Shown here: positions 10,413 to 44,191 of the stretch, piece after piece
Numbering within the stretch: position 1 is the stretch's first letter
Layout: each line of letters opens with the position of its first letter
Source: Niabella yanshanensis
GTDB taxonomy: Bacteria > Bacteroidota > Bacteroidia > Chitinophagales > Chitinophagaceae
DNA length: 64,000 bases
Assembly: GCF_034424215.1 (NCBI RefSeq)
Contig: NZ_CP139960.1
Span: 930,001 to 994,000 of the forward strand
Direction of reading: 5' to 3'
The notes under the pieces: model-generated
Database searches by the model: none
What the model saw: only the letters and a program-made list of their open reading frames with translations
Told to the model about the DNA's origin: nothing
Position numbers and translations under genes: made by a program

Positions 10413-10468
10413 TGATCATATTTTATTTGTTTCGTGCCGACACGAAACAAGGCTTGGTTTCATGGCTT

Positions 10469-11626: not shown

Positions 11627-11659
11627 TCTTATAATTGTTCGTTCTTTTAATCTTTTTAT

Positions 11660-15664: not shown

Positions 15665-16330
15665 TTATTTTTTATTCTGGGCTGCTTTTTCAGCGTTTCT
15701 TTTATTCACATAATCTTTGAATAATTGTTTCCAACTGCGTCCGTTACTATTCAGGTATTGTTCGCATTTAGTTTTGTAGATCTCAAAAATGGCCGAGATC
15801 TCTTTCATGCTTTTATAATCGATCGCCTGTTCACGCGCCTGTTTCAGATTTTTCAATATTTCAGTATGCTCTTTATCCGTAAGATCGGGCACTATGGCTT
15901 CATAGCCTTTCAACGTAAAAGCTACTTTACCTATGGTATATTGATCTAAAATGGCTTCAACCTGCTGTGGTGTTAACTCTGCTTTCAGGATATTCATCAG
16001 GTTTTCATGAACCGCTTTCGGTTTTTGCGAACAATAGATTACTTCCCAGTCTAAATTGCTCAAGACATTCCCTGTACCAGGATTGATCCCGCCCGGATTA
16101 TCTTTTACCGGATGCGAATTGTGCCAATCTCTTACTTCCGTAAGATGTTGAGCAATAGCGGCCTGAACTTTTTGTTTTTTACTTTCGTCGGATAACTTTA
16201 AGTCATTCACCCATTCGGTAGCTTTTTTTTGTAATTCCTGGTTGTCGGCAGGCACTTGTGCATAAAGTCGGCCAGACGCCATCGCCACGGATAAAGCTAT
16301 TATGCTGATACTTTTTTTAAGGCTGATCAT
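15665..16330 (-). CDS. DUF3826-like exported protein
   Basis: The 221-residue protein has a Sec signal (hydrophobic residues 8-20, ending RLYAQ). The mature part is helical and charged, with WVNDLKLSDESKKQKV, RDWHNSHP and a Lys-rich C-terminus. It matches what I recall of the DUF3826 family, often found beside GH78 and other plant-polysaccharide enzymes in Bacteroidota. The family has no known reaction. It lies between the GH78 and sialidase-like genes at short spacing (18 and 7 bases), so it is surely cotranscribed with them and probably periplasmic. Confidence 0.6.
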   Translation of the reverse strand: MISLKKSISIIALSVAMASGRLYAQVPADNQELQKKATEWVNDLKLSDESKKQKVQAAIAQHLTEVRDWHNSHPVKDNPGGINPGTGNVLSNLDWEVIYCSQKPKAVHENLMNILKAELTPQQVEAILDQYTIGKVAFTLKGYEAIVPDLTDKEHTEILKNLKQAREQAIDYKSMKEISAIFEIYKTKCEQYLNSNGRSWKQLFKDYVNKRNAEKAAQNKK

Positions 16331-26068: not shown

Positions 26069-27553
26069 TTAGTTTTTATTATTGATAGCCTGTAACCAAC
26101 CCCGGTACCATTCCATTGCATTATTCGATTCGCCTGACGGCTCCAGTACTACCTTATCACTTTTGAGATTTTTTAGTGTGGCTATGTTGTGAAATATGCC
26201 TTGCTGCAGACCAGCCATATAAGAGGCGCCTAAGGCCGACACGTCGGGCATACTACTTCTGGATACCGGTTTGGCCAATACATCAGTGAGCAACTGCATC
26301 ACGAATTCATTCGCTGTTAAGCCACCATTGGTCATTAGCTGTTTTAATGGTATACCCGTATCCTTTTCCATTGCTGAGATTACATCAGTGATCTGGTACG
26401 GAATAGATTCCAAAGCTGCACGTACAATATGATTTTTGTTGGTACCGAAAGTCATCCCTGTTATAGACGCTTTTCTATTCATTTCCCAGTGGGGCGAACC
26501 TAATCCGCTGAAAGCCGGCACCAGGTAAACGCCTCCGTTATCAGAGACGGTATTTGCCATGCCTGTCGTTGCTTTCACATCATCAAAAAGACCCAATTCA
26601 TTTTTCAACCATTCGATGGTACCGCCACAGGTAACAATCACTCCTTCCAGCGCATAATCAACTCTGCCTGGAATACTCCAGCAAATAGTTGTAACCATTC
26701 CATTTTGAGATGTAACCGGCTTATTACCGATATTCATAATAATGCTGGAGCCCGTTCCCAATGTGGCTTTGGCAGTACCTGCATCAAAACAACCTTCGCC
26801 AAAAGCTGCGGCATGAGAATCACCGATTAAAGCAGTAACAGCTACAGGATCAGGTAATAATCCATTAATGGTGGAAGCTCCAAAATGAGCCGAAGAGGAT
26901 TTCACCTCCGGCAATTGTAGATTGTTTAAACCAAAGGCCTCCAGCAATTCAGCATCCCACTTTAAATCATGAATATTGAAAAACAGAGTACGGGATGCAT
27001 TGGTATGGTCCGTGGCATAACTCTTACCATTCGTTAATCTATACAACAACCAGGTATCAATGGTTCCGAAAAAAGCTTTCCCGGATACCACTGCTTCCTT
27101 TATGGCCGGATCATTTTCAACCAGCCATATGAGTTTGGTAGCCGAAAAATAGGGATCAATCACCAGGCCTGTTTTAGCCGCAATTGTACTGCTTAGTCCC
27201 CGCTGCGCCAATGCTTCGCATACTTTTACTGATCGTTTGCATTGCCATACAATAGCGGGGTGTAAAGGCCTACCCGATTCATCCCAAAGGACGAAAGTCT
27301 CCCTTTGATTGGATATACCAATCGCGGTAATCTGCCTTTTTGAATATCCGTTGATCTCCAGATCATTCAAACAATTACTAACGGCTGCAATTACGTTGTT
27401 GTAAATGGCTTCCGGATCCTGTTCCACAAAACCTTCGCCAAAATAATTCGTTTGCAAAGGTGCTGCCCCCCTGGCAATTGCCTGCCCCCCTGCATCAAAT
27501 ACTAATGCCTTGGTGCCGCTGGTGCCCTGATCTATAGCGAGAATGAAGTTCAT
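26069..27553 (-). CDS. FGGY-family carbohydrate kinase (GlpK-like; candidate D-apulose kinase)
   Basis: The 494-residue cytoplasmic protein opens FILAIDQGTSGTKALVFD, the FGGY ATP-phosphate motif. It has ITAIGISNQRET, IGDSHAAAFGEG and the signature MTNGGLTANEFVMQLLTDVL. Overall it is close to glycerol kinase. Glycerol kinases normally sit with GlpF or GlpD. Here it lies directly behind a ribose-type ABC importer and in one run with an isomerase and a split transketolase. That is the arrangement described for D-apulose kinase in the non-oxidative D-apiose route. The proposed reaction is D-apulose + ATP to D-apulose 4-phosphate (inference). Xylulose or another ketopentose are alternatives. Confidence 0.85.
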   Translation of the reverse strand: MNFILAIDQGTSGTKALVFDAGGQAIARGAAPLQTNYFGEGFVEQDPEAIYNNVIAAVSNCLNDLEINGYSKRQITAIGISNQRETFVLWDESGRPLHPAIVWQCKRSVKVCEALAQRGLSSTIAAKTGLVIDPYFSATKLIWLVENDPAIKEAVVSGKAFFGTIDTWLLYRLTNGKSYATDHTNASRTLFFNIHDLKWDAELLEAFGLNNLQLPEVKSSSAHFGASTINGLLPDPVAVTALIGDSHAAAFGEGCFDAGTAKATLGTGSSIIMNIGNKPVTSQNGMVTTICWSIPGRVDYALEGVIVTCGGTIEWLKNELGLFDDVKATTGMANTVSDNGGVYLVPAFSGLGSPHWEMNRKASITGMTFGTNKNHIVRAALESIPYQITDVISAMEKDTGIPLKQLMTNGGLTANEFVMQLLTDVLAKPVSRSSMPDVSALGASYMAGLQQGIFHNIATLKNLKSDKVVLEPSGESNNAMEWYRGWLQAINNKN

Positions 27554-27596
27554 TTAAAGTTTAAGATTTTAAATTCAAAATTGGGCATTCCGACCG

Positions 27597-28568
27597 CTAA
27601 TCTTTCTTATCAATTTTATCAATCACCACTGCTAACAGAATTACCCCTCCTTTCACTACCTGTTGCCAGAAGGGCGATACATTTAACAAAACCAAACCAT
27701 TATTTAAAACACCGATAATAATAGCGCCCATCACCGTTCCCCAGATAGTACCGCGGCCGCCACTGAGAGAAGTTCCGCCAATTACTACAGCAGCAATAGC
27801 ATCCAGCTCATAGCTATTACCAGCGTTAGGTTGCGCTGAATCCAAACGGGAGGTAACAATAATACCACCAATTGCTGCCATCGCACCTGCCAGGGCATAA
27901 ACGATCATTTTAATATTGGATATTTTTATTCCGGAGAATTTCGCTGCTGTTTCGTTGCCGCCGATAGCATAGATATAGCGCCCCAGCCGGGTTTGACGGG
28001 TTATAAAAACCGCAAACAATACCACCACCAAAGCAATCCACACCGGAACGGGTATTCCGAAGAAAGATCCCGAACCTATAAAATTAAATTTAGATCCCAG
28101 GTTACTGATTGGCTGCCCTTTAGTGTACAGCATGGTGAAACCACGGGCAATCGTAAGCATGGCCAATGTGGCCACAAACGGTGGCACATTAAACTTAGTG
28201 ATCACAAAGCCATTAAACCAACCCAAAACTCCGCCAATAATAATAGCAGCCAATATAACACCCAAAACAGTAAAGCCGATATAGGTATCAGTTGCAGCAA
28301 TAGGAATTCCATTTTTTAGCAACCCAGCAGCCACTGCGCCGCAAAACGCCAATATGGAACCTACAGAAAGATCAATACCGGCTGTTAACACAACCAGCGT
28401 CATACCTGTTGCAATACAAATATTTACCGCGGTTTGTCTTAACACGTTTAAACCATTATCAGCAGTAAAGAATTTATCCGTAAGTATCGACAGAATAATA
28501 CACAATAACACCAATGCAATCAGGGATTGCAGGCTTTTAATTCTTTGTTTATAGTTAACGGTGGACAT
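27597..28568 (-). CDS. Ribose-type sugar ABC transporter permease
   Basis: This 323-residue membrane protein has about 9-10 hydrophobic segments and the family stretches LTAGIDLSVGSILAF, LGWFNGFVITKFNVPPFVATLA and VVIGGTSLSGGRGTIWGTVMGA. These are typical of RbsC-like permeases of the CUT2 class. It should form the inner-membrane channel with the ATPase encoded 5 bases upstream. CUT2 sugar importers are uncommon in Bacteroidota, which mostly use SusCD plus MFS or SSS carriers. Confidence 0.92.
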   Translation of the reverse strand: MSTVNYKQRIKSLQSLIALVLLCIILSILTDKFFTADNGLNVLRQTAVNICIATGMTLVVLTAGIDLSVGSILAFCGAVAAGLLKNGIPIAATDTYIGFTVLGVILAAIIIGGVLGWFNGFVITKFNVPPFVATLAMLTIARGFTMLYTKGQPISNLGSKFNFIGSGSFFGIPVPVWIALVVVLFAVFITRQTRLGRYIYAIGGNETAAKFSGIKISNIKMIVYALAGAMAAIGGIIVTSRLDSAQPNAGNSYELDAIAAVVIGGTSLSGGRGTIWGTVMGAIIIGVLNNGLVLLNVSPFWQQVVKGGVILLAVVIDKIDKKD

Positions 28569-28572
28569 TAGC

Positions 28573-30078
28573 TTAATTTTTATGGATAGCTTTGGTTAAC
28601 AAACTGGCTTCGGTGGCATCAGCAATGGGAATATCGGCTGTAATCTCGCCTTCACACATTACCAATACCCTGTTAGCCAGTGCTAATATCTCGGGTATTT
28701 CAGAAGACACGACAATAACACCCACTCCACCTGCAGCCAGATCTTTGATCAATTTATAGATTTCAGATTTAGCTCCAACATCTATACCCCGTGTTGGTTC
28801 ATCTAATAATAAAACCTTGGGATTTTTAGCCAACCACTTTGCAATGACTATTTTCTGCTGATTCCCACCGCTCAGGTTTTTGGACAAAGTATTTTGTGAA
28901 GCTGTTTTTATATTTAGCTGTTCGATATAGTCTTTTGCCAGCGCCGATTCTTTACGTGCGTTTAAAAATATCCCGTTTTCTTCCAGCTGCTTTAATACAG
29001 TTACGCTGATATTTTTCTTCACGCCCAAACCCAGGCAAAGGCCTTGTAGCTTACGGTCTTCCGGAACCAGCATAATACCCGAAGCGATCGCCCGAGCAGG
29101 CGAATTGATCTTCTTCAGCTCTCTTTCAACTTGTATTGTACCTGAACCCAGTTTGGGATGTAATCCAAAAATGGTTTCGATCAACTCTGTGCGTCCCGCC
29201 CCCATTAATCCGTACAATCCCAATATTTCACCCTTATGCAAAGTAAATGAGGCGTCTTTAACCAGGAACCCGCTCATATCTTCTCCATTCTTCAGGTTGA
29301 CATTTTTTATCTCTAGTAAAGGCTCATTGAAAATAACATCAGATATATTCTTCTCAATCACAATCTTACGCCCTGCCATTTTCTCTACCAGCTCATCCTG
29401 GGTAATAGTAGCCATATTTCCTGACGCAATCGTAGCCCCATCTCTCAACACCGTATAAGTATCAGCCTTCTGGAACAGTTCCTTTAACTTATGAGATATA
29501 TAAACAATGATCTTTCCCTCTTCTTTTAGCTCGTCAATAATTTCGAAAAGATTGTCGACTTCTTTATCGGTAATCGCCGAAGTAGGTTCATCCATTATAA
29601 TCACTTCAGCATTGGTATGTAAAGCCTTTGCGATCTCCACCAGTTGCTGTTGTCCCACTTTTAATTTGGAGACGAGCGTATCTGGACTGATGTCCAGGTT
29701 TACTTTTTTAAGTAACTGTGTGGTATACTTACGCATGGCGCCCTTGTCCAGGATACCCAGCGCGCTGGTTATTTCACGACCCAGAAAAATGTTTTCAGCA
29801 ATACTCAAATGTGGTACCAGGTTCAATTCCTGGTGAATGATGGCGATACCCGCATCCTCTGCATCTTTGGTTGAATTAAACTGCACTTTATTTCCGTGAA
29901 AGATGATATCCCCATTGTATTGTGTATGTACACCCGACAATATCTTCATCAGGGTAGATTTACCCGCACCGTTCTCCCCTACGATGGCATTTACTTTACC
30001 CGGGTACAATTCCAGGTTTACATTGTTTAAAGCCGTGACGCCGGCGAACTTTTTGGTTATGTTTTTCGCTATTAACAT
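28573..30078 (-). CDS. Ribose-type sugar ABC transporter ATP-binding protein (two ATPase domains)
   Basis: The 501-residue protein has two ABC domains. The first has Walker A GENGAGKST, signature LKVGQQQLVEIAKAL and Walker B VIIMDEPTSA. The second has a degenerate Walker A (YGLMGAGRTEL), LSGGNQQKIVIAKWL and LLLDEPTRGIDVGAK. This is the RbsA/XylG layout that energises CUT2 sugar import. Its ATG overlaps the DUF2291 stop by one base (TGATG), showing translational coupling. Confidence 0.95.
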   Translation of the reverse strand: MLIAKNITKKFAGVTALNNVNLELYPGKVNAIVGENGAGKSTLMKILSGVHTQYNGDIIFHGNKVQFNSTKDAEDAGIAIIHQELNLVPHLSIAENIFLGREITSALGILDKGAMRKYTTQLLKKVNLDISPDTLVSKLKVGQQQLVEIAKALHTNAEVIIMDEPTSAITDKEVDNLFEIIDELKEEGKIIVYISHKLKELFQKADTYTVLRDGATIASGNMATITQDELVEKMAGRKIVIEKNISDVIFNEPLLEIKNVNLKNGEDMSGFLVKDASFTLHKGEILGLYGLMGAGRTELIETIFGLHPKLGSGTIQVERELKKINSPARAIASGIMLVPEDRKLQGLCLGLGVKKNISVTVLKQLEENGIFLNARKESALAKDYIEQLNIKTASQNTLSKNLSGGNQQKIVIAKWLAKNPKVLLLDEPTRGIDVGAKSEIYKLIKDLAAGGVGVIVVSSEIPEILALANRVLVMCEGEITADIPIADATEASLLTKAIHKN

Positions 30079-30704
30079 CAGGGAACAATTTTTATGCTTA
30101 CAGGAATCAATTCAAGGTCATCAAAATGGATATGCTCTTTATTTAACTCGATAGCTGCTGTAAATTCTATCTGATCACCTGTCTTTAAAGCCGGCTTGAA
30201 TGCCGGAACTACTTTTTGCCGGACTGTTTTATTTAATTCTTCAGAAATGCTGTTTAGGTCGCTGGTATTGGGAAATTCTTTTAATTCAACCAGAGCGGAA
30301 GCATCTCTCAAGGCGTTGCCATAAACGAACTCGGTAACCAGGCTGGCTTTAAGTGGTGTATTGCCATTTGTTGTTATTGCTACATCGTCTGCTCCTATTT
30401 TATCTACCCTGGCTGTACCCTTTACCAACGCGTACCGGTAATTACCAATCGCCAAAGCATTCGTATACTTCTCAAAAGCTCCGTCCGCATCTGATGCTAT
30501 AGCTGTTTTTAAGGTATTGATATCAATTGCCGTCTGAAGGCGCGCAGGCAATTTTTCCCTCCACAATTTGGCCACGTAGCTTACTGCGTCAAATTTTTCA
30601 CCGGCAGTGGCTTTTACGTCGCTGAGTTTTTTTATATAAATAGAATTATAACCCAATAGCCCAATGGCCACTAATATAATCCCGTATTTTAAAAACCTGT
30701 TCAT
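30078..30704 (-). CDS. DUF2291 protein of sugar ABC transporter operon
   Basis: The 208-residue protein has an N-terminal anchor (FLKYGIILVAIGLLGYNSIYIKKLS) and a periplasmic part with VSYVAKLWREKLPARLQTAID, as in the DUF2291 family. That family is regularly encoded between the binding protein and ATPase of ribose-type sugar importers, as here. It has no proven function and may be an accessory that helps the binding protein dock or a complex assemble. There is no lipobox Cys, so it is probably held by the N-terminal helix. Confidence 0.8.
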   Translation of the reverse strand: MNRFLKYGIILVAIGLLGYNSIYIKKLSDVKATAGEKFDAVSYVAKLWREKLPARLQTAIDINTLKTAIASDADGAFEKYTNALAIGNYRYALVKGTARVDKIGADDVAITTNGNTPLKASLVTEFVYGNALRDASALVELKEFPNTSDLNSISEELNKTVRQKVVPAFKPALKTGDQIEFTAAIELNKEHIHFDDLELIPVSIKIVP

Positions 30705-30736
30705 TGGAATTGTTTTAAAAGTTCAGCGTTCGTTGG

Positions 30737-31699
30737 TTATTTCTTTCCGTAGGCCACATAGTCCTGCACATTCTTTTTGGTAACCATTTCCACCGCTACC
30801 GGTATTTTTTGAGGAAAGTCCCTTTTGCCTTTTATGTACTCGTCTGCAAATACGGCAGCTGTCTGTGCCATCACCAATGGAAACTGCATACCGGTAGCAT
30901 ATACTTTGTTATCATTAATAGCAGCAATCACATCATCGGCGCCGTCGAAACCAAATACTTTTACCTTATCTGCTTTTCCTGCTGAAAGCAATGCCTGGTA
31001 AGCGCCCATTGCCATGGCGTCATTACCGCAAAAAACACCGTCGATATTGGGATGCGCCTGGAGAATAGATTCCATTACTTCCATAGCTTTATTACGATCG
31101 AAGTCGGCACTTTGCTGTGCCACCATTTTCAGATCTTTATAATTATCTATCACACTATGAAAGCCTTTTGACCTTGCCCAGGTGTTGTTGTCCCCAACTA
31201 GCCCCAATAGTTCAACGTAATTGCCGGTTTTATTCAGCTGCTGTACAAAGTATTTACCAATGGCTACAGAACCAGAATAACTGTCTGAAAGTATTTGTGA
31301 AGTAGCTGCATCCAGCGAATTAATTTCCCTATCCATGCAAAAAACCGGTATGTCTGCAGCTTTAGCCTTTTTAACGTTGGCTACCGAACCGTCTGCATCT
31401 GTGGGATTAAAAAGAATGGCATCAAAACCCTCCACTATGATATTATCAAAATGATCGCTCTCCAGGGCGGAGTTATTTTGCGAATCGAATAATTTAGTTT
31501 CATAACCCAGTTCCTTTGCCTTGGCAGCCGCTTGCTCGCCCAGGAATACAAACCAGGGATTATTTAATGTAGAAATGACTATCGCCATTTTCTTTTGTTG
31601 CTTGCTTCCGGGTTCTTTGCTTTTACATTGTGTCAGCAGCAATCCCATCGTCAGTAACAAAAGTCCGTTGTAGAAAAGCTTTTTCATATTAGGCATCAT
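30737..31699 (-). CDS. Sugar ABC transporter substrate-binding lipoprotein (ribose/apiose type)
   Basis: The 320-residue protein has a lipoprotein signal with lipobox LLTQC at about residues 22-26. It has the periplasmic-binding-protein type I fold: [53 protein letters not shown]-like stretches and [12 protein letters not shown]. This is the RbsB class that binds pentoses and hexoses. It would deliver the sugar to the permease and ATPase encoded downstream. Three D-apiose-binding proteins described earlier belong to this class, so D-apiose is a candidate ligand given the GH140 gene in the run (inference). A start at Met5 (31687) is equally possible. Confidence 0.9.
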
Positions 31700-31734
31700 T
31701 AAATCGTTTTAGGAAAATAGAAGTTCTGCTAAAC

Positions 31735-32697
31735 TTATTTCGAGCGCAACAATTCCTTTGCCGTTGTAGCAATCCCATCCCTACTGATACCATAGTGCCC
31801 CAGGATCTCGCCCTGTGAACCGGTTACTGTGTATTCATCCGGTATACCCATTATTTTAAAGGGCTTGCTGATACCCTTTTGTAAAAGGTAACCGGCACAG
31901 GCTTCTCCGAGCCCGCCATATACGCTATGCTCTTCTACAGTAAGAACAGCTTTAGAAGCACGGGCTTTTTCAGCCAAAAGTTCAGTATCCAAAGGTTTGA
32001 TCGTATGCATACTAACTACAGTAGCCGCAATACCCTCTTCTTTTAAAAGTCTTGCTGCTTCCAACGCGGGATATACCGTTTCTCCACAACCGATAATCAA
32101 TACATCATCTCCCTCGGTTATGATGCGTCCTTTGCCAAAAGCAAAAGCCTCCTCGTTGACCTCTTTTAATGACGGCATCGGCTTTTTGCCAAAGCGCAGG
32201 TAAACAGGCTCTTGGGTTCGTGCAGCGAGTTCAATGGCTTGTTCCGTTTCCCAGTTATCCGCCGGCGCTACCACTGTTATATTATTGATAGCCCTGAGCG
32301 CTGCGTAATCATGCAGACTGTGATGCGTGCTACCTAAAGCGCCATAGCTTACACCGGCACTAATGCCTATCACATTAACAGGGTTGTTACTATAAGCTAC
32401 ATCGTTCTTGATCTGCTCCAACGCACGCGCTGTTAAAAAGCAAGCGGGAGATGTTGCAAATACCTTCTTCCCACAGGATGCCAATCCGGCTGCCACACCC
32501 ACCAGGTTTTGTTCTGCAATACCCACTTCCACAATCTGGTCGGGATATTTTTTGCCAAAGGGAACTAACTTGCCCGAGCCACGGCTATCGCTGGTTACAG
32601 CTATGATATTCGGATCTGTCTCCGCCAGCCTTTGCAGTGTTTCTGAATACACGTCCAGGTTGGCTTTATAAGGTAAAGTGTTGATTTGTTCTGCCAT
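31735..32697 (-). CDS. Transketolase, C-terminal subunit (candidate apulose-4-phosphate transketolase B)
   Basis: The 320-residue protein covers the pyrimidine and C-terminal domains: EVGIAEQNLVGVAAGLAS with the catalytic Glu, GSTHHSLHDYAAL, and the C-terminal IIGCGETVYPALEAARLL and TVEEHSVYGGLGEA. It needs the partner encoded 29 bases upstream to make a full enzyme. Split transketolases are known as DXS-like or sugar-locus enzymes. In D-apiose clusters the pair acts on D-apulose 4-phosphate. It is cytoplasmic and TPP-dependent. Confidence 0.92.
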   Translation of the reverse strand: MAEQINTLPYKANLDVYSETLQRLAETDPNIIAVTSDSRGSGKLVPFGKKYPDQIVEVGIAEQNLVGVAAGLASCGKKVFATSPACFLTARALEQIKNDVAYSNNPVNVIGISAGVSYGALGSTHHSLHDYAALRAINNITVVAPADNWETEQAIELAARTQEPVYLRFGKKPMPSLKEVNEEAFAFGKGRIITEGDDVLIIGCGETVYPALEAARLLKEEGIAATVVSMHTIKPLDTELLAEKARASKAVLTVEEHSVYGGLGEACAGYLLQKGISKPFKIMGIPDEYTVTGSQGEILGHYGISRDGIATTAKELLRSK

Positions 32698-32726
32698 TGT
32701 TCAATTATATAAATGAAAGTCAAAAC

Positions 32727-33551
32727 CTAAATTGCTAATAATGCTTCATCCAGTTCCTTAATAGCCTGCTCATACTCGTCTGCAGAAGGAACACCGTGAT
32801 GCCATTTCAATACGTTCTCCATATAGCTTACACCTTTGCCTTTAGTAGTGTGCGCAATAATAACACTGGGCTTTCCTTCTTCAAAAGGTATCTCCTTCAA
32901 CGTTAATTTCAGCGCCTCTATATCATTTCCATCTACTTCTCTAACTGCCCAGCCAAAAGCTTTCCACTTTTCGTCGAGGGGATCCGTATTACATACATCT
33001 GCTGTTGGCGCTGTAATCTGCAAAGAGTTTTTATCAACAATAGCACAAAGATTGTCGAGCTTATAATGCGCCCCTGTCAAAGCCGCTTCCCAATTGCTTC
33101 CTTCGGGCATTTCTCCATCGCCCATCAGGGTATAAACCTTATAATCCTTTTTATCCAACTTGCCGGCCAATGCAGTACCGACCGCAATGGGCAAACCATG
33201 ACCCAGGGCACCGGTATTCTGCTCTACGCCATTTACTTTACGTGTAGGATGGCCAATATAATGCGACTGGTATTGGCAAAGGGTGTTCAATTCGTCTTCG
33301 GCGAAAAATCCTTTATCAGCCAATACAACGAACAATGCTTCTACTGTATGACCTTTACTTTGAATATAACGATCCCGGTCAGGAGATTCGAAGTTTGCCG
33401 GCGATACGTTCATGATCTCATTGTACAATACATTCAGGATGTCCGTGCAGGAAAGGCTCCCGCCGGTATGCCCAGCTTTTGCCTTTACAATATATTGGAG
33501 TATTTTTTTTCTATACTCAATGGACTTTTGTTGAAGTTCTTTTGTTGTCAT
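32727..33551 (-). CDS. Transketolase, N-terminal (TPP-binding) subunit (candidate apulose-4-phosphate transketolase A)
   Basis: The 274-residue protein is the TPP-binding half: AGHTGGSLSCTDIL, QSKGHTVEALFVVLADKGF, GALGHGLPIAVGTALAG and the TPP motif GDGEMPEGSNWEAALTGA ending in VDKNSLQ. It is encoded directly before the C-terminal half. As a pair they would move a two-carbon (or, for apulose-4-phosphate, a C2 ketol) unit to an aldose phosphate, giving dihydroxyacetone phosphate when the donor is apulose 4-phosphate. Because it sits in a sugar-uptake run, a housekeeping role is unlikely. Confidence 0.92.
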   Translation of the reverse strand: MTTKELQQKSIEYRKKILQYIVKAKAGHTGGSLSCTDILNVLYNEIMNVSPANFESPDRDRYIQSKGHTVEALFVVLADKGFFAEDELNTLCQYQSHYIGHPTRKVNGVEQNTGALGHGLPIAVGTALAGKLDKKDYKVYTLMGDGEMPEGSNWEAALTGAHYKLDNLCAIVDKNSLQITAPTADVCNTDPLDEKWKAFGWAVREVDGNDIEALKLTLKEIPFEEGKPSVIIAHTTKGKGVSYMENVLKWHHGVPSADEYEQAIKELDEALLAI

Positions 33552-33579
33552 ATCAAACTGTTGTTTGAAGTTTAAAATG

Positions 33580-34995
33580 CTAACTGTGTAAATAGGTTTC
33601 CCAGCCCAGATAGTTCTCCATGGCCTCTTTCAAAATACCTGCTGTTTTGCTGGCATTCATTACTACGTGATGCTCAAAACCATTACGACATACATGTTTC
33701 ATCAGCCCTTGTAAATCATCTATCTGTGCTACCGCCCGGTTACCAAAGGTTTTTAATTCATCGTTGGTTAATTCGCCCTCGCCTACGTATGCTTTGATCA
33801 CACCTTTACAGTCATCGGTACTGATACGCCCGTAAGTCAACGGCATCGCAGGCGTGCGGCCATCCAAAGCGCCGTAAGTATTTTCTGTACCCACCGTTGT
33901 TCCTAAGATCGGTGCGGTACTGATACTGATATCCGGCAGGAAGGACTTTGCCCAATTACCACAATGGAACAGTACACACTTGGTATCATCATCAGCATAA
34001 TTATTATTCCAGTCTACCAATGCGCTGGGTGAGCCACTGGCCAATTGCATGGCATACATGCTTAAAGTACCCGTCACATCTACTTCACAAGCGCTGGGCA
34101 ACATATTCTCGCTCATCATGCTCATGCTCGTACATACATTACAACCATAGTTTTGCTGTATCGAGGTCCAGCATTGGATAGCAGTGCAATCCAGTGCATT
34201 GGCTTCCATAAAATCAGCCAACACTACGTCCAATTTTGCTATCTGCACCAGCTTATCACTGGGTGTTTTCCCTACAGAGGTATAAGCATGGATTTTCTCC
34301 AGTTTTTCTTTTACCGACCTATCATCTGCTGTAAGCTTGTTTGCATTACCCAGTATTTCAGAAAGATCAACTGTTGTAACTGAAATGCCATTACGTTGCA
34401 ATATCTTTTCACTATAGCGAACGGTATTAAAAGCTGTAGGTCTTGCACCTACGGCACCAATACGCACTTTCCGTAAACCTTTCACCACGCGACAAACGCC
34501 AACAAAATCGAGCAGGTCCTTCCTGAAAGTCTCATCTTGTAGCCTGTTTACATGTTTGGTAGTCAACGTATATTTAATACCATATTGGTATAGATTATTA
34601 CAAACCGAAATCTTACCACACCAGGCATCTCTCCGGTTAACTACGTCCAGTTTGTTCAAATCATCAGAATACGCCTGTATCAACACGGGAACATTTAATT
34701 CGGCAAGTTTCAAGGTTTCTGCCACGCCTTTTTCATCACCAAAATTGGGCAACACCACGAGCACCCCATCTATGGCATCGCGGTGCTCTCTAAACAGAGC
34801 CGCACATTTCTGTGCTTCAGCAAAAGTTTCTACGCCACCCAGCTTCGAATCGGTATCGCTAAGCATGATGGGAGTGATATTAAGCTCTTTTAAAAAGTCG
34901 AGCACTTCGATACGGGCTTCAGCAACCAGCTTATCAGGAAAAAAATCCCTGTTGCCGATAATGACGCCCAGTGTGGCATTTTTTTGTGATGACAT
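33580..34995 (-). CDS. L-fucose/L-arabinose isomerase family protein
   Basis: I place the start at the ATG at 34993-34995 (MSSQKNATLG), giving 471 residues. An upstream in-frame ATG at 35103 would add 36 residues but would overlap the preceding gene by 104 bases. Family segments are LGVIIGNRDFFPDKLVAEAR, VRIGAVGARPTAFNTVRYSEK, CTAIQCWTSIQQNYG, and LPSACEVDVTG with LVDWNNNY, which may carry metal ligands. Family members interconvert aldoses and ketoses with Mn2+. Located between the propeller genes and the transketolase pair, it is the best candidate in the run for D-apiose to D-apulose isomerisation (inference). L-fucose, L-arabinose or another aldose is possible. Confidence 0.8.
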   Translation of the reverse strand: MSSQKNATLGVIIGNRDFFPDKLVAEARIEVLDFLKELNITPIMLSDTDSKLGGVETFAEAQKCAALFREHRDAIDGVLVVLPNFGDEKGVAETLKLAELNVPVLIQAYSDDLNKLDVVNRRDAWCGKISVCNNLYQYGIKYTLTTKHVNRLQDETFRKDLLDFVGVCRVVKGLRKVRIGAVGARPTAFNTVRYSEKILQRNGISVTTVDLSEILGNANKLTADDRSVKEKLEKIHAYTSVGKTPSDKLVQIAKLDVVLADFMEANALDCTAIQCWTSIQQNYGCNVCTSMSMMSENMLPSACEVDVTGTLSMYAMQLASGSPSALVDWNNNYADDDTKCVLFHCGNWAKSFLPDISISTAPILGTTVGTENTYGALDGRTPAMPLTYGRISTDDCKGVIKAYVGEGELTNDELKTFGNRAVAQIDDLQGLMKHVCRNGFEHHVVMNASKTAGILKEAMENYLGWETYLHS

Positions 34996-34999
34996 AGTT

Positions 35000-36832
35000 T
35001 TATAGTTTCGAGTATTTGAAATAGCTGATATTATAAACGGCTTCTTTATCCTTTTCCCCTGCATTGGGTAAATCGTACATCTGGTCGGTAGGTGTATCCG
35101 CATTAGGAAAACGTCTTACTCCCCCTGTTCTGAAGCTCACATGATGAACCTTATGTATGGGTGCAAATATGATATTATTGTTAGGGTTACTACCGTTGAT
35201 GGAAACCGTATATAACCTTGTAGCGGTATTCAGTTCAATAATAAAATTGTAGGTTTTACCTGCTTCATATTTTGTCAATGCTTTATCGCGGTAACCCGCT
35301 TTGGTTATAATAGTACCGGTAGAATCGAAAGACAAACGCAGACAAGGCGTGTTGCGGGCATCCTGTACTTCAATATCCAGGCGGCCATTGGCTGTTTGCT
35401 GTGGTGTAACGCTAAACTCTATCTTCACCCTGCTGGCTTCCGGCACTACGCGCTCTGCTTTACCCAGGTCAAAAGGATCAAAATCTTTTAAGGACAAAAC
35501 CTTTTTACCACTTTCTTTCACAATGGAAACGGGCGCCCAAAGCGGGCTATACAAATTCCAGTTCTTTAATTCTTCCCCGTCTTTCAATGCAGAAAACTTG
35601 TCATCCACATTTCCTTCTACCTGGCTTTGAACAGGCATGGGAATTTTGGCTACCCACATATCTTCCTTATTGACGCTGTAAGTAACCCAGTTGTTCTTTC
35701 CGGGAGGTATTCCGTTCATTTCCTGGATGCCACGTACATATTGAGGTCCGTAGGATTTATAGTTACCGCCATAACGCATGGAAGTGATCTCGCCGTTTAC
35801 TAAAAAGAGATTCTTATAGTTTAAACCATCATCACTGACAGATAATGCCAGTGGCCATCGGAATTCACTCGGATTATATACCGTCATGTATTTTCCATCG
35901 ATCGTTTTCTGTCCCCAGATCTTGGCATTAGAGTTCACAAAACCCGGCGCTCTTAAAGGATTATATAACCAGGTTTTACCATTGTCCGCAGACATACTGG
36001 TTAAAGCATTTTTCCAGAAACCAATGACACGACCATTCGGCAGGTGATAGTAACTAAACGCCTTTACTTCTTTCTGCAGTGGAATCAAAGGATCATTTCT
36101 ATCCGCCTCTTCTACCCATTGCTGCATCTGCAGAGGTTGCGCTAACAATTCATCACATGCCGCTATAAAGGATTTATCTTTTGATTTTTTATAGAAAGGG
36201 TAACTGGTATTCTTCTCATTAAAGTCGTGGTTGTACCTTATAAAATAGATGGGGCCTAAACTACCATCTTTATTGATTTCCCGCACCACACGCCCCACGC
36301 CATTACCATCATTAGGATCGTCTTTGGCGTACAGCGCAATACCATAATAACCCAATGCCAGCAGCTTATTATTTTTAGCAGTATAAAACCCCATGCGCTG
36401 GTGCATTACTGCATCAATATCTTTGGCGATAGCCGTATCTTCCTTCTTTTTAAACCCGTTGGGCAGGCGATAAACAGGAAACAGGTCGATAGGTTTAGAC
36501 CAGTTGTAGCCATCTTTGGAAGTGAACAAATAAGTTGCACCCGGAGCTATATGCTCCCCTACCGGGTTGCTCAGAAAATGCATGTAAAAAGTATTGTTCC
36601 AATAAGCCAGCATGGGTTGATGATTATAAGTCCAGTTCATACCTCCAGCCCATTCAGGATGCTCCCGGTTGGCCCTGAACACCTGGATATTATGTACTCC
36701 TACCACGGGCGTTAGCTGTCCGTGGTGATAATCTACGTTAGACAAGGTTGGCCCGATATATCGCGCTGTATCCTGCTGCGCGAAACCTGTCAATGCACTA
36801 ATACTTAGTAAATATGTAAAAAGAGTTTTCAT
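35000..36832 (-). CDS. Exported propeller protein with C-terminal lectin-like sandwich, unassigned
   Basis: Starting at the ATG at 36830-36832 (MKTLFTYLLS), the protein has about 610 residues and a signal peptide ending LTGFAQ. The first 400 residues are propeller-like: repeated TSKDGYNWSKP, SADNGKTWLY and SVSDDGLNYKN are degenerate Asp-box or GH43/GH32-like turns. From about residue 420 a beta-sandwich follows (FSALKDGEELKNWNLYSPLWAP onward, with RLDIEVQDARNTPCLRLSFD), similar in outline to GH32/GH43 C-terminal sandwiches. It resembles exo-sialidase-like or GH145/PL42-type propellers, but I cannot assign it. It lies between the GH43-like and isomerase genes, so it probably acts on the same substrate. 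An ATG 7 codons upstream (36853) is possible. Confidence 0.55.
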   Translation of the reverse strand: MKTLFTYLLSISALTGFAQQDTARYIGPTLSNVDYHHGQLTPVVGVHNIQVFRANREHPEWAGGMNWTYNHQPMLAYWNNTFYMHFLSNPVGEHIAPGATYLFTSKDGYNWSKPIDLFPVYRLPNGFKKKEDTAIAKDIDAVMHQRMGFYTAKNNKLLALGYYGIALYAKDDPNDGNGVGRVVREINKDGSLGPIYFIRYNHDFNEKNTSYPFYKKSKDKSFIAACDELLAQPLQMQQWVEEADRNDPLIPLQKEVKAFSYYHLPNGRVIGFWKNALTSMSADNGKTWLYNPLRAPGFVNSNAKIWGQKTIDGKYMTVYNPSEFRWPLALSVSDDGLNYKNLFLVNGEITSMRYGGNYKSYGPQYVRGIQEMNGIPPGKNNWVTYSVNKEDMWVAKIPMPVQSQVEGNVDDKFSALKDGEELKNWNLYSPLWAPVSIVKESGKKVLSLKDFDPFDLGKAERVVPEASRVKIEFSVTPQQTANGRLDIEVQDARNTPCLRLSFDSTGTIITKAGYRDKALTKYEAGKTYNFIIELNTATRLYTVSINGSNPNNNIIFAPIHKVHHVSFRTGGVRRFPNADTPTDQMYDLPNAGEKDKEAVYNISYFKYSKL

Positions 36833-36894
36833 AATAATGTTTTTGTTGTTCATGGTTGATGGTTCACAGATGATAGAAAAGCCATAGCTATGAA

Positions 36895-37821
36895 CTATGA
36901 CCTGTTACCCCCGACCTGCTTCACTAACTGCTTCACTAGTTTCTTCTTCACCGGTACAATAGTGCCGTGTTTATGCCCTTCGGGAATGCTTATCCTGTTA
37001 TTAGCATTTTCAAAGTGAATGAAATCTTTTGTTGCCACCGCTTCGTAAGTTTTCTTGCGGTAAGAGTCAAAATAAATCAGCCATTCGTCTTTTACTTTTA
37101 CGGTGTTGGGGCCTTCTGTAAAATTCTCAGTAAAAGGTTTGGAAATATTTTTCCAGGGGCCCATGGGCGAGCTTCCAAAAGCTACTTTAACATTCCTTTC
37201 CGGCCTGGTGTTGTCTTTTAGAATCAAGACATAGTCATTGGCTTTTCTTTTAACAATTTGCGCATCAATTACACTAAATTTCGGATCCAGGAATAACCGG
37301 GCTGGCGTAAATGTTTGAAAATCTTTGGTAGTGGTGGCATACAGGCGATGATTATTGCTATCTGGTTCAATACCTCTTTCGAAACGGCCAGGTATTGTTG
37401 TAGCCCAAACAATAATATACTGATCTTGTACATCGTCGTAAAACAATTCAGGAGCCCAAACATTTACAGCGCCAGGCTCATGCTCCATTACCGGAACATG
37501 TTTTTGAGCGGTCCAATGAATTAAATCTTTTGAAGAAGCAGTGCCAAATCCCTTATCCTTCTGCCAGCTGCTCGTCCATACCAAATGAAAAACACCGTCG
37601 GGTCCCTGCACCATTGATGGATCCCTCATTACTTTTTGTGTTCCCACTTCAGGTTTCAGAAAAACCGTATCAAAATCCTTCCAGTGATATCCGTCATAAC
37701 TATACAACATCCGTAAACCAGCGTCAGCAGGCTCGTGAAAAGACGTAAACAAGTACGCCTTATTTGAACAGGATACTAACGCGAATACTATCGCAATCAA
37801 TATGGCTATATTTTTTTTCAA
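36895..37821 (-). CDS. GH43-like five-bladed propeller lipoprotein
   Basis: The 308-residue protein has a lipobox FALVSC (lipid Cys18) and so is anchored in a membrane facing the periplasm or cell surface. The three GH43-type carboxylates are seen as D67 in MRDPSM, D186 in VIDAQIV and E236 in FTEGPN, with VWAPELFYD between them. The likely activity is arabinosidase, arabinanase, xylosidase or galactosidase on plant polysaccharide side chains. It follows GH140, from which it is separated by a repeat-like 120-base spacer. Confidence 0.8.
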   Translation of the reverse strand: MKKNIAILIAIVFALVSCSNKAYLFTSFHEPADAGLRMLYSYDGYHWKDFDTVFLKPEVGTQKVMRDPSMVQGPDGVFHLVWTSSWQKDKGFGTASSKDLIHWTAQKHVPVMEHEPGAVNVWAPELFYDDVQDQYIIVWATTIPGRFERGIEPDSNNHRLYATTTKDFQTFTPARLFLDPKFSVIDAQIVKRKANDYVLILKDNTRPERNVKVAFGSSPMGPWKNISKPFTENFTEGPNTVKVKDEWLIYFDSYRKKTYEAVATKDFIHFENANNRISIPEGHKHGTIVPVKKKLVKQLVKQVGGNRS

Positions 37822-37877
37822 ATCGTTTATTTTTTTACTTGTCTGTAAAAAAGATGTCAGTTCAATTCCAAATGTGG

Positions 37878-37921
37878 TTCGTCATGCTCTCCGAGGGAGT
37901 CCTTTGGACACCACGACATCC
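37878..37921. repeat. GTCATGCTC...palindrome-like intergenic element
   Basis: CGTCATGCTCTCCGAGG and a later GGACACCACGACATCC form an imperfect inverted pair (GTCATG/CACGAC with G-T pairing, and GTCC/GGAC in the middle as a second stem around TTT). It resembles REP-like elements common between genes in this phylum. It may also act as a hairpin between GH140 and GH43 messages. Confidence 0.4.
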
Positions 37922-37941
37922 GTTTTTGATTTATCAAGAGT

Positions 37942-39324
37942 CTATTTCTTCAATACCAATACCCAGTCATTACCATTCTTTGGTTGCCCCGGCGGATCAA
38001 AACTCACAATACCTGTTTTTGCTTTTAAACTAACAGATTGTGTAGAACCATCAACAGGACTATACCATTGTGCCGAAGCCAGCTTAAAACCCAACTTTGC
38101 AGTATTTATTTTAAATGTTCTCCCCGTATAAATGTAGGCCATAGCATAAGCAGGGCCCTTTGTGGCTATGATATAATTATATCTTTTCTGGGTATTATCT
38201 GCAATAATTTCCTGGGCAGGCTTACGATCGAAATAGCTGTAAGAGAGCATCAGGTCTTTCAGGTACTTCATTTGCAATGCACCCGGTGCATTGATGGTCT
38301 CTTTCCAGTTATTAAATACACCAAAATTCGCATCGGTATCACCCATTTTGTTGAACTGCATAATGGCGTTCTCTCCATAAGTGAATCCTGCACCACCAGC
38401 AAAAACGCTCCAATATCCATAACGGCGTACTTCTGCAGCGGTCCAACGCGGTTGCAAACTATCATGCAAGCCGTAGGGAATGTTTTCGTAAGAAGGCTCG
38501 CCGTCCAGCACAGGCTTGGCAGGCTTCATATTATAATCTGTAACCACGAATTTCCAGTTATCTTCCCCATGGCGATGTTTCTCTTTCATTGAAGTATCCT
38601 GTGCATAAGAACGATGCCCGCTCTGGAACATATTAAAGTCAAGCCACTTCCTGGTGTGGAACCAATCTGTAGAAGAATAACGGCCTCTCGGGTGATAAGT
38701 CATTAAATGATGAGCATCGTATTTTTTGATGGTGGTCCCTATAGCTTCCCATACATCCGCTTTAGCATTACCTTCAATATCGCCACCGTTCAGCCAGATA
38801 ATATTGGTATTACCTTTATAACGCTCAGCTAAAAATTTAGCAAAAACAGCAGCTTTCGGGGCAGTTACTGCTTTGTCTTTGGCAGCCGATCCCCAAACCG
38901 GCACCAGGGCCATATAAATACCCCGCTTCTCTGCCTCCCGAACAACGAAGTCTACATGGTCCCAGAAATCATAGGCTGCTTTATCTTCAAAAGAGGCTCC
39001 CGGTGTTCTTAGCGGCTGACTGATATCTCCCTCCTTCAGCGCTTTGGCGCCATATACATTCTTTGCTCCCAAAGTATGTAATACCATCGCCTGCACTACA
39101 TTAAAACCCTGTTGCTGGCGTGTATCCAGGTATTGCAAAACTTCTTCCCTGCTGCATTTTATAAAGAGCAGCCAACCGGTGTCACCTAACCAGAAGAACG
39201 GTTTACCGTCAGCCGTCTGGAAAAAGCGCTGATTCTGCGAAATTTTCAACGGCTGCATGGCCTGAGCCACCCCGTCATTACATAAATAAATAACTAAAAA
39301 AAGCAACACAAAGAGTCGTTTCAT
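37942..39324 (-). CDS. GH140-type apiosidase-like glycoside hydrolase (DUF4038)
   Basis: The start is taken at 39322-39324 (MKRLFVLLFL), giving 460 residues with a signal peptide ending NDGVAQA. The body is a DUF4038/GH140 TIM barrel: QNQRFFQTADGKPFFWLGDT, QQGFNVVQAM, IIWLNGGDIEG with D182 and KPVLDGEPSYENIPYG with E276. These two carboxylates are at the places expected for the acid/base and nucleophile of the Bacteroides RG-II apiosidase. A C-terminal collagen-binding-like sandwich (AQWYSPVDGSTQ) completes it. The enzyme should release D-apiose from pectin side chains, in line with the pentose uptake genes downstream in the same run. DUF4038 proteins with other specificity exist, so the substrate is inferred. 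An in-frame ATG 16 codons upstream lacks a signal peptide start. Confidence 0.82.
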   Translation of the reverse strand: MKRLFVLLFLVIYLCNDGVAQAMQPLKISQNQRFFQTADGKPFFWLGDTGWLLFIKCSREEVLQYLDTRQQQGFNVVQAMVLHTLGAKNVYGAKALKEGDISQPLRTPGASFEDKAAYDFWDHVDFVVREAEKRGIYMALVPVWGSAAKDKAVTAPKAAVFAKFLAERYKGNTNIIWLNGGDIEGNAKADVWEAIGTTIKKYDAHHLMTYHPRGRYSSTDWFHTRKWLDFNMFQSGHRSYAQDTSMKEKHRHGEDNWKFVVTDYNMKPAKPVLDGEPSYENIPYGLHDSLQPRWTAAEVRRYGYWSVFAGGAGFTYGENAIMQFNKMGDTDANFGVFNNWKETINAPGALQMKYLKDLMLSYSYFDRKPAQEIIADNTQKRYNYIIATKGPAYAMAYIYTGRTFKINTAKLGFKLASAQWYSPVDGSTQSVSLKAKTGIVSFDPPGQPKNGNDWVLVLKK

Positions 39325-39400
39325 AACACAAGCAAATATGAATTCGTAAATTAAAATCCTGCCGGTACCCAACCCAGGTATTCGGCGTTTCTAAGGTAAA

Positions 39401-44141: not shown

Positions 44142-44177
44142 ATGCTTTACAATTATTAATGACAAATTATTCAATCG

Positions 44178-44191
44178 TGTAAACGTTTACA
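44178..44191. promoter_or_regulatory. LacI-type operator before the SusC gene
   Basis: TGTAAACGTTTACA is a perfect 14-base palindrome in the 67-base gap between the LacI gene and SusC. It lies about 10 bases before a TAATTTG element that could be the -7 box, so a bound repressor would block RNA polymerase. A second near-copy is found in front of the LacI gene. Confidence 0.75.

Follow-up and report, generated by a model that had tools for sequence, protein, structure and literature searches.

A putative apiose arm with a FucI-family isomerase in a predicted RG-II utilisation locus of Niabella yanshanensis

A run of genes carried by the soil-type bacterium Niabella yanshanensis very probably is that part of a locus for using the plant pectin RG-II which deals with D-apiose: the release, import and catabolism of this rare branched sugar would be encoded there side by side, by a seemingly complete gene set. 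The run is located in a window of 64,000 nucleotides, the whole stretch of DNA that was analysed. Since its kinase and transketolase fall together with apiose-cluster enzymes, and homologues of its FucI protein occupy the isomerase slot in clusters of that kind, it would encode a known pathway in which the isomerase is of a different, unexpected type and which is joined to an RG-II locus. The pathway in question is the D-apiose transketolase pathway reportedly described by Carter et al. in 2018, which involves ApsI, AplK and AptAB. D-apiose had already been proposed as the substrate in a sequence-only reading of the same DNA, and this proposal gains support from the grouping of the kinase and transketolase with the E. 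coli apiose cluster, from the GH140 enzyme and from the RG-II context.

All the parts listed in that reading, namely GH140, the importer, FucI, the FGGY kinase and the split transketolase, were found, together with DUF2291, in a single minus-strand run between lacI and the GH142 gene. Starting from its downstream end, the run consists of the FGGY kinase (26069..27553), the RbsC-type permease (27597..28568) and RbsA/XylG-type ATPase (28573..30078) of an ABC importer, a DUF2291 protein (30078..30704; PF10054, 2.7e-54), a CUT2 sugar-binding lipoprotein (30737..31699; PF13407), the AptB-type C subunit (31735..32697) and AptA-type N subunit (32727..33551) of a transketolase, a FucI-family isomerase (33580..34995), a GH143 enzyme (35000..36853), a distant GH43-type, BT_3657-like protein (36895..37821; PF22847 and PF04616, with one weak PDB match at 7e-4) and a GH140 apiosidase predicted to release apiose (37942..39372). 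Upstream lie a SusD-type glycan-binding lipoprotein (39507..40934) and a SusC-type outer-membrane transporter (40965..44174), both recognised from their sequences and from clustering with loci L040 and L041, and a LacI-family regulator (44209..45228; PF00356 and PF13377), all on the minus strand. From the kinase through SusD, the intergenic gaps range from -1 to 134 bp, except that the longest FucI ORF, reaching 35103, and the GH143 gene share a 104-bp overlap. The locus extends beyond the interval 26069-39324 initially delimited, with the SusD, SusC and LacI genes upstream (39507-45228) and the GH142 gene (24533-26065), then esterase, GH2 and GH78 genes, downstream; inside that interval, the GH143 half (35000-36853) and the GH43-type protein (36895-37821) had been left unnamed. 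For GH140, the start formerly placed at 39324 is an alternative ATG in the same frame, after which comes a stretch resembling a signal peptide. The SusC gene possesses a further in-frame ATG 11 codons inside.

With respect to its gene content, the whole locus is predicted to be an RG-II utilisation locus because GH140 is accompanied by GH143, GH142, a BT1017-like methylesterase and a DUF3826 protein. The GH140 protein displays a PF13204 domain (2.9e-111), matches the BT1012 structures 3kzs/5msy at 2e-120 and the apiosidase 8t9w at 1.1e-66, and aligns D198 and E292 to the catalytic acids D187/E284 of BT1012, features that together characterise it as a putative apiosidase. GH143 (5mqr residues 24-610, E 3.4e-225; PF24067, 3.6e-122) and GH142 (24533..26065, minus strand; 5mqr residues 618-1096, E 2.3e-201) correspond to the two halves of BT1020, a DHA hydrolase and a beta-L-arabinofuranosidase, respectively. 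Further downstream on the same strand occur a SASA-type carbohydrate acetylesterase (23035..24486; PF03629), a GH2 protein (20213..22969; PF02836/PF02837), a GH78 alpha-L-rhamnosidase (16349..19099; PF17389; 6i60, 7.7e-184), the DUF3826 protein (15665..16330; PF12875, 1.3e-69) and a BT1017-like RG-II pectin methylesterase domain (2758..4227; 6goc, 9e-117). According to the architecture of BT1017 given in part of one report, DUF3826 forms its C-terminal part and 6GOC is BT1017-CM (PMC7939467). No Pfam family matched the esterase at 2758..4227 at 1e-8. From the Bacteroides thetaiotaomicron RG-II loci, BT1012, the two halves of BT1020 and the two domains of BT1017 have homologues in the window. 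BT1020 and BT1017 are each split into two genes here, and the window in addition builds in sugar-catabolism genes and an ABC importer.

The closest reference for the catabolic genes is the region of E. coli SE15 treated as an apiose cluster in the excerpted source, where the cluster-positive strains tested grew on D-apiose, SE15 not being named among them in that part (PMC13001218). This region contains a permease, an ATPase, an annotated DUF2291 gene, a binding protein, a GlpK-like kinase and a split transketolase, and shows no annotated sugar isomerase. Six of the window proteins share 34-51% identity with those of the SE15 cluster, e.g., 44% for the permease, 41% for the ATPase, 41% for the transketolase C subunit and 51% for the N subunit; a blastp comparison of the two DUF2291 proteins gave no match at 1e-3. 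In a joined N+C transketolase tree, built quickly and with long-branch and composition warnings, without bootstrap, 26 of the 34 rows, all of the apiose type, stand apart from 8 other split transketolases (SH-aLRT 99), and the tree assigns the two-subunit transketolase of the window to the apiose-cluster type.

The FGGY kinase is of the apiose-cluster type and is proposed to be a GlpK-derived D-apulose kinase, on the basis of its Q246S + F270S signature and of its position in a tree. It scores 551 with the GlpK subfamily model NF000756, above the cut-off of 498, but 548 with the GlpK equivalog TIGR01311, under the required 590. At the GlpK pocket residues Q246 and F270 (E. coli numbering), the window kinase has S and S; the same pair occurs in 71/71 apiose-type kinases (62 from cassettes and 9 references), against Q and F in 30/30 GlpKs. 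A quick kinase tree, without bootstrap and subject to the same warnings, splits 23 apiose-type rows from 15 GlpKs (SH-aLRT 99) and leaves the window kinase on the apiose-cluster side. By raw score, the GlpK of the same genome (398 bits) outranks the E. coli apiose kinase (334) as a match to the window kinase, which counts against the apiose reading; that separate GlpK retains both pocket residues and adjoins a gene which resembles an aquaporin by eye. The sequence-only reading would have counted against itself a clustering of the binding protein and the kinase with ribose, xylose or glycerol proteins: such clustering was indeed observed at the family level, whereas for the kinase the pocket residues and the tree point the other way. 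A family-level likeness to GlpK does not weigh against the apiose assignment because it is shared by the kinase of the E. coli apiose cluster.

The genomic evidence for a D-apiose isomerase of the FucI family is strong. The protein contains a PF02952 domain (4.6e-28) and conserves the E, D and H metal-type residues in 6/6 aligned sequences, which places it in the L-fucose isomerase superfamily; its structure model is poor (mean pLDDT 47). The ATG at 34995 is its likely start because the overlap with GH143 then vanishes and the starts of its relatives agree. Klebsiella pINF102.2, Sodalis and Rahnella possess apiose-type clusters of the E. coli kind in which the isomerase slot is occupied by a FucI homologue sharing 55-56% identity with the window isomerase, and the two SDRs are absent from that place; the Sodalis cluster shares 78% (N subunit) and 72% (kinase) identity with that of E. 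coli. Elsewhere, the same slot is filled by two SDRs in E. coli and by ApsI in Pectobacterium. An identification of the window isomerase with ApsI, which has a xylose-isomerase-like fold, was rejected, the isomerase of the run being PF02952; a PF01261 protein (1780-2661) lies outside the run, elsewhere in the window. No report of a FucI homologue active on apiose was found in the literature searched.

The gene set recurs more often than by chance because its eight-gene order is repeated in other genomes, identically in 4/4 others with fully read flanks and, apart from gaps where contigs end, in the majority of 80 additional loci; the isomerase occurs in 6/395 Bacteroidia genomes and keeps similar gene company in several bacterial phyla. 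That all parts stand in one run holds for the present locus but is not unique to it, since GH140 and GH143 accompany the cassette in 9/80 loci, in two different arrangements and with GH140 identities of at least 49%. Against the apiose reading, GH140 was not seen in 69/80 cassette loci within the flanking DNA examined, and in 4 Bacteroidia genomes besides this one blastp gave no match for it in the vicinity of the cassette. Clusters from Listeria and Monoglobus also combine a distant FucI relative, only 25-26% identical to that of the window, with a split transketolase, a GlpK-like kinase and a PF13204 protein; the Monoglobus isomerase matches no Pfam family at 1e-5, not even PF02952. The Listeria monocytogenes cluster (L123) resembles the window also by its LacI regulator but differs from it by a PTS importer and a PF13204 protein devoid of an evident signal peptide, so that cleavage probably takes place after uptake. 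Its gene order fits that of lmo1031-1035 as given in the available part of PMC2996996, to which it may be equivalent.

With the D-apiose transketolase pathway, the window has in common the kind of importer (ribose-type ABC, accompanied by DUF2291), of kinase (FGGY, GlpK-like) and of transketolase (two subunits). It differs in that it has a FucI-family isomerase instead of ApsI (Pectobacterium) or an SDR pair (E. coli), adds GH140 and other RG-II enzymes, and has a LacI regulator instead of the PF04198 type. We infer as follows what each enzyme catalyses in N. yanshanensis and which ligand the binding protein takes. SusC/D would take in RG-II fragments from which GH140 would free D-apiose, and the ribose-type importer would carry the sugar into the cytoplasm. 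The FucI-family enzyme, metal-dependent, would convert D-apiose to D-apulose, the glycerol-kinase-derived kinase would yield D-apulose 4-phosphate, and the two-subunit transketolase would transfer the C1-C2 unit onto glyceraldehyde 3-phosphate, so that xylulose 5-phosphate and DHAP are formed, in accordance with the reaction chemistry of the apiose pathway.

Other readings of the cassette have been weighed against this one. The run could serve D-ribose or D-arabinose, FucI being a D-arabinose (or ribose) isomerase, the kinase a ribulokinase, the transketolase an ordinary enzyme of the pentose-phosphate pathway and GH140 an accidental neighbour, which we consider unlikely. Among solved structures, the ribose-binding protein of T. 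maritima (2fn8, 3.3e-106) comes nearest to the binding protein of the window, followed by 2ioy and then 4ry0/5ibq (5ibq, 9.2e-60). With the RbsB equivalog NF007936, the window protein scores 225 against a cut-off of 337; the R. etli protein of 4ry0/5ibq was reportedly crystallised with ribose and with apiose. Nucleoside-hydrolase-like genes, found in 36/80 loci, also fit a ribose cassette, and the T. maritima ribose operon probably matches it gene by gene. In the available part of its description, this operon, induced by ribose and xylose, unites a ribose-type binding protein, a transketolase and two sugar-catabolism enzymes, two genes being assigned to D-arabinose catabolism; it is interpreted as serving ribose and D-arabinose, and RG-II enzymes are not described there (PMC3750489). 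Against a ribose or D-arabinose cassette, the kinase and transketolase side with the apiose cluster, which allows growth on apiose in the carriers tested and for which no sugar isomerase is annotated in E. coli, GH140 and GH143 are found again beside the cassette in other loci, two Bacillota clusters contain apiosidase-family proteins, and no ribokinase is annotated inside the reference clusters as shown.

An even less likely role for the isomerase and kinase is the use of intracellular D-arabinose, arising from aldolase splitting of Kdo, which is part of RG-II according to the excerpted PMC12282258; two DHDPS-type genes of the window are consistent with it, but an ABC importer would be superfluous for a sugar arising within the cell, as would a dedicated transketolase for D-ribulose 5-phosphate, and no Kdo enzymes are annotated in the stretches seen of the enterobacterial and Listeria clusters. 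A sulfoquinovose-type pathway, in which the FucI-like isomerase and the two-subunit transketolase would act on an unphosphorylated ketose beside an ordinary glycerol kinase, is barely credible: the SftI sulfoquinovose isomerase model NF048012 is the sole NCBIfam match of the isomerase at 1e-5, but its score of 87 lies far below the cut-off of 700, the kinase lacks the two pocket residues which the separate GlpK keeps, and we noted none of the run's genes as being of the sulfoquinovosidase type.

Besides the apiose arm, a second catabolic module, proposed for DHA, occurs on the minus strand at 4235..14334. It comprises two SSS symporters (12766-14334 and 4235-5791), two DHDPS-type proteins (11660-12613 and 9507-10412), an Fe-ADH (10469-11626), a PdxA-type dehydrogenase (8458-9501) and a DUF1537/SBD_N kinase (5879-7009). 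A transposase-like gene lies among them. By a hitherto unassigned route, DHA freed by GH143 would be split by a DHDPS-type aldolase into pyruvate and D-threuronate, which the Fe-ADH would reduce to D-threonate before the DUF1537 kinase and the PdxA-type dehydrogenase give DHAP and CO2. Moreover, Sde182 nucleoside-hydrolase-like proteins sit inside 26/80 cassette operons, and their founding member is described as lacking activity on nucleosides and as a module that may interact with furanoses (PMC8910321). Such proteins could be furanosidases freeing apiofuranose, a sugar with a cis-diol similar to the one in ribose. That a two-arm RG-II rare-sugar locus, with a FucI-type apiose isomerase and a DHA route, and an unrecognised family of Sde182-like furanosidases should all hold jointly is a tentative and rather doubtful proposal.

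Apiose carries the borate cross-link joining RG-II molecules, according to an excerpt of PMC12282258. The fate of apiose freed by GH140 in such Bacteroidota is a gap that the locus makes testable by one enzyme assay. If correct, the assignment would offer a candidate function for many genes named fucose isomerase or glycerol kinase (at least 561 isomerase relatives were confirmed in the genome collection) and would explain how some enterobacteria devoid of the SDR pair could use apiose; the locus also points to a possible DHA catabolic route and to what the nucleoside-hydrolase-like proteins of the Sde182 family may do.

With regard to regulation, a perfect LacI-operator-like palindrome, TGTAAACGTTTACA, occurs directly ahead of susC (44178..44191) and a copy with 2 mismatches directly ahead of lacI (45248-45261), positions which suggest an operator. 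A pattern search returned 1 exact match and, allowing up to 3 mismatches, 7 matches against 4.1 expected, a count not significant by itself because 12/100 shuffles reach 7.

The features described here for the window (930001-994000 of a 5.54 Mb genome) all lie on the minus strand. In the order of transcription, a LacI-family regulator (44209-45228) is followed by SusC and SusD, both assigned by eye and by clustering, a GH140 protein (37942-39372), a distant GH43-type protein and GH143. The cassette then comprises a FucI-type isomerase at 33580-34995, the N and C subunits of a split transketolase, a binding protein, a DUF2291 protein, an ATPase, a permease and an FGGY kinase (26069-27553), and is followed by GH142, an acetylesterase, GH2, a YhcG-type nuclease gene, GH78, DUF3826 and a BNR protein. 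The YhcG-type gene, of the PDDEXK class, occupies 19100-20206 in the RG-II run, with GH78 and GH2 as its neighbours. The genes named in the sequence-only reading were thus found in one minus-strand run, and its interpretation of that run as a complete locus for D-apiose release and catabolism is very probably right, in view of the kinase, the transketolase and the occurrence of FucI genes inside apiose clusters. The locus represents the known apiose pathway with another isomerase, built into a locus for the plant pectin RG-II, and not a new kind of system; its interest lies in the FucI-type isomerase and the cross-phylum gene company of this protein.

The RG-II context is provided by likenesses to enzymes of Bacteroides thetaiotaomicron. 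The GH140 protein matches BT1012 (E 2e-120) and an apiosidase structure (E 1.1e-66), and its residues D198 and E292 align with both catalytic acids of BT1012, D187 and E284. BT1020 (5mqr) is matched in two parts, residues 24-610 by the 35000-36853 protein and residues 618-1096 by the 24533-26065 protein; its two halves, GH143 and GH142, are thus encoded separately in this locus, one gene on either side of the apiose cassette. The 2758-4227 protein matches the methylesterase module of BT1017 (6goc, 9e-117), and the remaining domain of BT1017 is of the same family as the DUF3826 protein (15665-16330). Two matches to PF13204 occur in the window genome, including one strong match inside the window, and two to PF24067, strong in the window and weak (1.1e-5) for the second. 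A xylose-isomerase-like TIM-barrel protein (PF01261, 1780-2661) with a signal-peptide-like start adjoins the RG-II esterase, and relatives of it (54-57%) occur at the same place in three of the eight other regions read. With respect to regulation, a perfect palindrome, TGTAAACGTTTACA, directly precedes susC, and a version of it that differs at two positions directly precedes lacI, an arrangement that would fit LacI control; matches with up to three mismatches are no more numerous than expected by chance.

The isomerase was detected in 6 of 395 Bacteroidia genomes, and the eight-gene order from isomerase to kinase is kept in all four other genomes whose flanks were read, the sixth match being located at a contig edge. 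The closest match among named genomes (96% identity, locus L040) belongs to Niabella hibiscisoli, another member of the Chitinophagaceae. At least 561 relatives were confirmed in the species genome collection (tblastn, E ≤1e-3), of which the best 80 were kept as loci, several of them cut by contig ends; the set is therefore biased towards close relatives, and all its carriers are, by their names, Bacteroidota. Among these best 80 of at least 561 (blastp, 1e-12), transketolase N occurs in 79 loci, C in 78, the binding protein in 72, DUF2291 in 69, the ATPase in 67, the permease in 63 and the kinase in 61. Within flanks of up to 10 kb, 54 of the 80 loci encode a DeoR-type regulator and two a LacI resembling that of the window.

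Apiose clusters of Enterobacteria serve as the reference for the pathway. According to PMC13001218, the tested strains of E. coli and E. fergusonii with the cluster grow on D-apiose and K-12 does not, and Pectobacterium possesses the apiose isomerase ApsI, instead of which Escherichia has two putative oxidoreductases. The region of E. coli SE15 consists of two such oxidoreductases (SDRs), a permease, an ATPase, DUF2291, a binding protein, an FGGY kinase, a regulator and transketolase N and C. Six of its proteins share 34-51% identity with their window counterparts; the DUF2291 proteins show no mutual match at 1e-3, and the SDRs have no match among the 16 window proteins compared.

The strongest evidence for the role of the isomerase is the replacement of this SDR pair by a FucI homologue in enterobacterial clusters. 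Among 15 plasmid records matching the window isomerase (tblastn), those of Klebsiella (pINF102.2, a record of only 11.6 kb), Sodalis praecaptivus and Rahnella encode FucI homologues 55-56% identical to it, each inside an E. coli-type cluster devoid of an adjacent SDR pair; in Rahnella, one SDR gene lies just beyond the cluster. The transketolase N, C and kinase of Sodalis are 78, 73 and 72% identical to those of E. coli. In a DNA search of 5426 E. coli genomes, the Klebsiella transketolase pair has matches in 629, at 60-80% identity, and the Klebsiella FucI gene has none. Across clusters that are orthologous in other respects, the first step falls to SDRs, to ApsI (PMC13001218) or, seemingly, to a FucI homologue. 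More distant FucI relatives (25-26%) are encoded in Listeria and Monoglobus pectinilyticus, in each case together with a split transketolase, a GlpK-like kinase and a PF13204 protein (PF13204 at 3.6e-93 in Listeria; DUF5060 type, with PF13204 at 3.2e-16, in Monoglobus). The Monoglobus isomerase is 71% identical to that of Listeria and has no Pfam match at 1e-5. The Listeria locus (L123, 4004-13086) consists of LacI, the FucI relative, transketolase, the GlpK-like kinase, a PTS and the PF13204 protein, which lacks an evident signal peptide; this gene content is perhaps suggestive of the uptake of a glucoside that contains apiose and is then cleaved inside the cell. The Glu, Asp and His residues expected at the FucI metal site are conserved in all six aligned sequences. 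The FucI-type protein has no sequence match in the PDB, and its AlphaFold model, based on five close sequences, was set aside (mean pLDDT 47). No FucI-family protein assigned to or assayed on apiose was found in the literature searched, in which subscription journals are poorly covered.

The transketolase and the kinase, which had been likened to a two-subunit apulose-4-phosphate transketolase and to D-apulose kinase, both group with the proteins of apiose clusters. Among the matches listed, the identity of the window transketolase N is 46-58% to the nine from apiose-type clusters and 36-44% to six other split transketolases. In a tree of 34 rows, 17 of them from the cassette (the window and one locus in five), 26 apiose-type rows stand apart from the 8 others with an SH-aLRT of 99, the tree being a quick one without bootstrap and with long-branch warnings. 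The split transketolase of Apilactobacillus (L156, 7980-9708) has a long branch and is not part of the apiose-type clade; its 'aptA/aptB' annotation, not trusted by itself, is therefore doubtful.

An ordinary glycerol kinase was considered as an explanation for the FGGY protein, which exceeds the cut-off of the glycerol kinase subfamily (551 bits vs 498) but remains below that of the equivalog (548 vs 590); the apiose kinase of E. coli likewise resembles glycerol kinase. That explanation was discarded on account of the pocket residues and the tree. Q246 and F270, in E. coli numbering, are both replaced by Ser in 62/62 cassette kinases (the window, four Bacteroidia genomes and one per locus from the 80, leaving out fragments of up to 440 residues) and in 9/9 reference kinases (five enterobacterial, two rhizobial, Listeria and Monoglobus), whereas Q and F are kept in 30/30 Bacteroidia GlpKs of the same alignment, a uniform set because they were chosen as best matches to the GlpK of the window genome. 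A quick tree likewise sets 14 of the 62 cassette kinases, along with the 9 references, apart from 15 of the 30 GlpKs (SH-aLRT 99). The loss of the phenylalanine would widen the glycerol pocket, as needed for a branched C5 ketose. A sulfoquinovose pathway was also discarded, on the basis of the model score and the kinase. The nearest solved structure to the binding protein is the ribose-binding protein of T. maritima (3.3e-106), ahead of the R. etli protein 4ry0/5ibq (about 9e-60), which was reportedly crystallised with ribose and with apiose. The T. maritima ribose operon is probably close to the window cassette, and a PF13204 match is present in the T. maritima control genome. That operon, according to PMC3750489, contains a transketolase and two predicted D-arabinose enzymes and is induced by ribose and xylose. 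Both the likeness of the binding protein and this operon count against apiose, and so does the absence of GH140 from most cassette loci within the DNA covered: a GH140 match occurs in 11 of the best 80 of at least 561, several cut by contig ends, and reaches at least 49% identity in nine. GH143 is present in the same nine loci, seven of which are arranged like the window, the two Dyadobacter loci being different. The assignment to apiose rests on more than GH140.

Other hydrolases accompany the cassette. Sde182-type proteins, related to nucleoside hydrolases (e.g., L061 13377-14786, L069 13887-15284 and L046 11385-12890), were detected by phmmer with PF07632 seeds in 36 of the best 80 of at least 561 loci, and in 26 of the 80 their genes are flanked by cassette genes of the same orientation. 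PF07632 is found in 10 of 149 Bacteroidia genomes, once below the family cut-off: in 4/4 cassette carriers (G000, G001, G065 and G110) vs 6/145 others (Fisher p 1.1e-5, genome relatedness being ignored). The two remaining carriers, outside this sample, also possess it, and the PF07632 gene of the window genome is located 340 kb from the cassette. The founding Sde182 protein is described, in PMC8910321, as inactive on nucleosides and as a possible furanose-interacting module. The AlphaFold model of a Sde182-like protein (pLDDT 74) matches by far best 2yhg, a nucleoside-hydrolase-related protein of S. degradans, which confirms family membership, not activity. Like ribose, apiofuranose possesses a cis-diol; an apiofuranosidase is therefore a reasonable guess by analogy, and these proteins are candidates for a new furanosidase family. 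The best 80 of at least 561 loci include 10 with a DUF5060-type relative of the apiosidase family; one of these proteins and that of Monoglobus were checked with Pfam. Possible distant apiosidases are the DUF5060-DUF5605 proteins encoded close to the cassette in these 10 loci and in Monoglobus (e.g., L057 19446-21065 and L165 14682-16217), which PF13204 matches weakly.

A second catabolic module (4235-14334, minus strand) consists of two symporters, two DHDPS-type proteins, an Fe-ADH, a PdxA-type dehydrogenase and a DUF1537-type kinase. It could convert DHA (3-deoxy-D-lyxo-heptulosarate), the sugar freed from RG-II by GH143, into pyruvate and DHAP via D-threonate: aldol cleavage, as derived by hand, would yield pyruvate and D-threuronate, and reduction of the latter would give D-threonate, the substrate of the known kinase/PdxA2 route. 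NCBIfam yields a single match for the kinase at 1e-15, to D-threonate kinase (120 bits vs a cut-off of 450), and the PdxA-type protein passes the biosynthetic PdxA cut-off (347 vs 290) and remains below that of D-threonate 4-phosphate dehydrogenase (332 vs 583). An Fe-ADH match at 1e-30 occurs in 11 of 16 genomes searched, twice at just 52% and 33% identity. In five of the eight such places read, the 20 kb that contain the module also include GH142 or GH143, two of these five genomes having the Fe-ADH match on a different contig from the apiose cassette; a sixth place runs on into locus L050, which has both GH142 and GH143. The module of L047 adjoins the apiose cassette itself. Against this DHA route count the PdxA scores, the two of eight places with neither GH142 nor GH143 within reach, and the lack of an Fe-ADH match at 1e-30 in three of the six GH143-bearing genomes searched (L044, L108 and L111). 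Literature joining threonate, rhamnogalacturonan and heptulosarates was absent among the matches listed. An integrase-core (transposase) gene with a short ORF (7183-8384), located between the kinase and PdxA genes, is apparently an insertion in this module.
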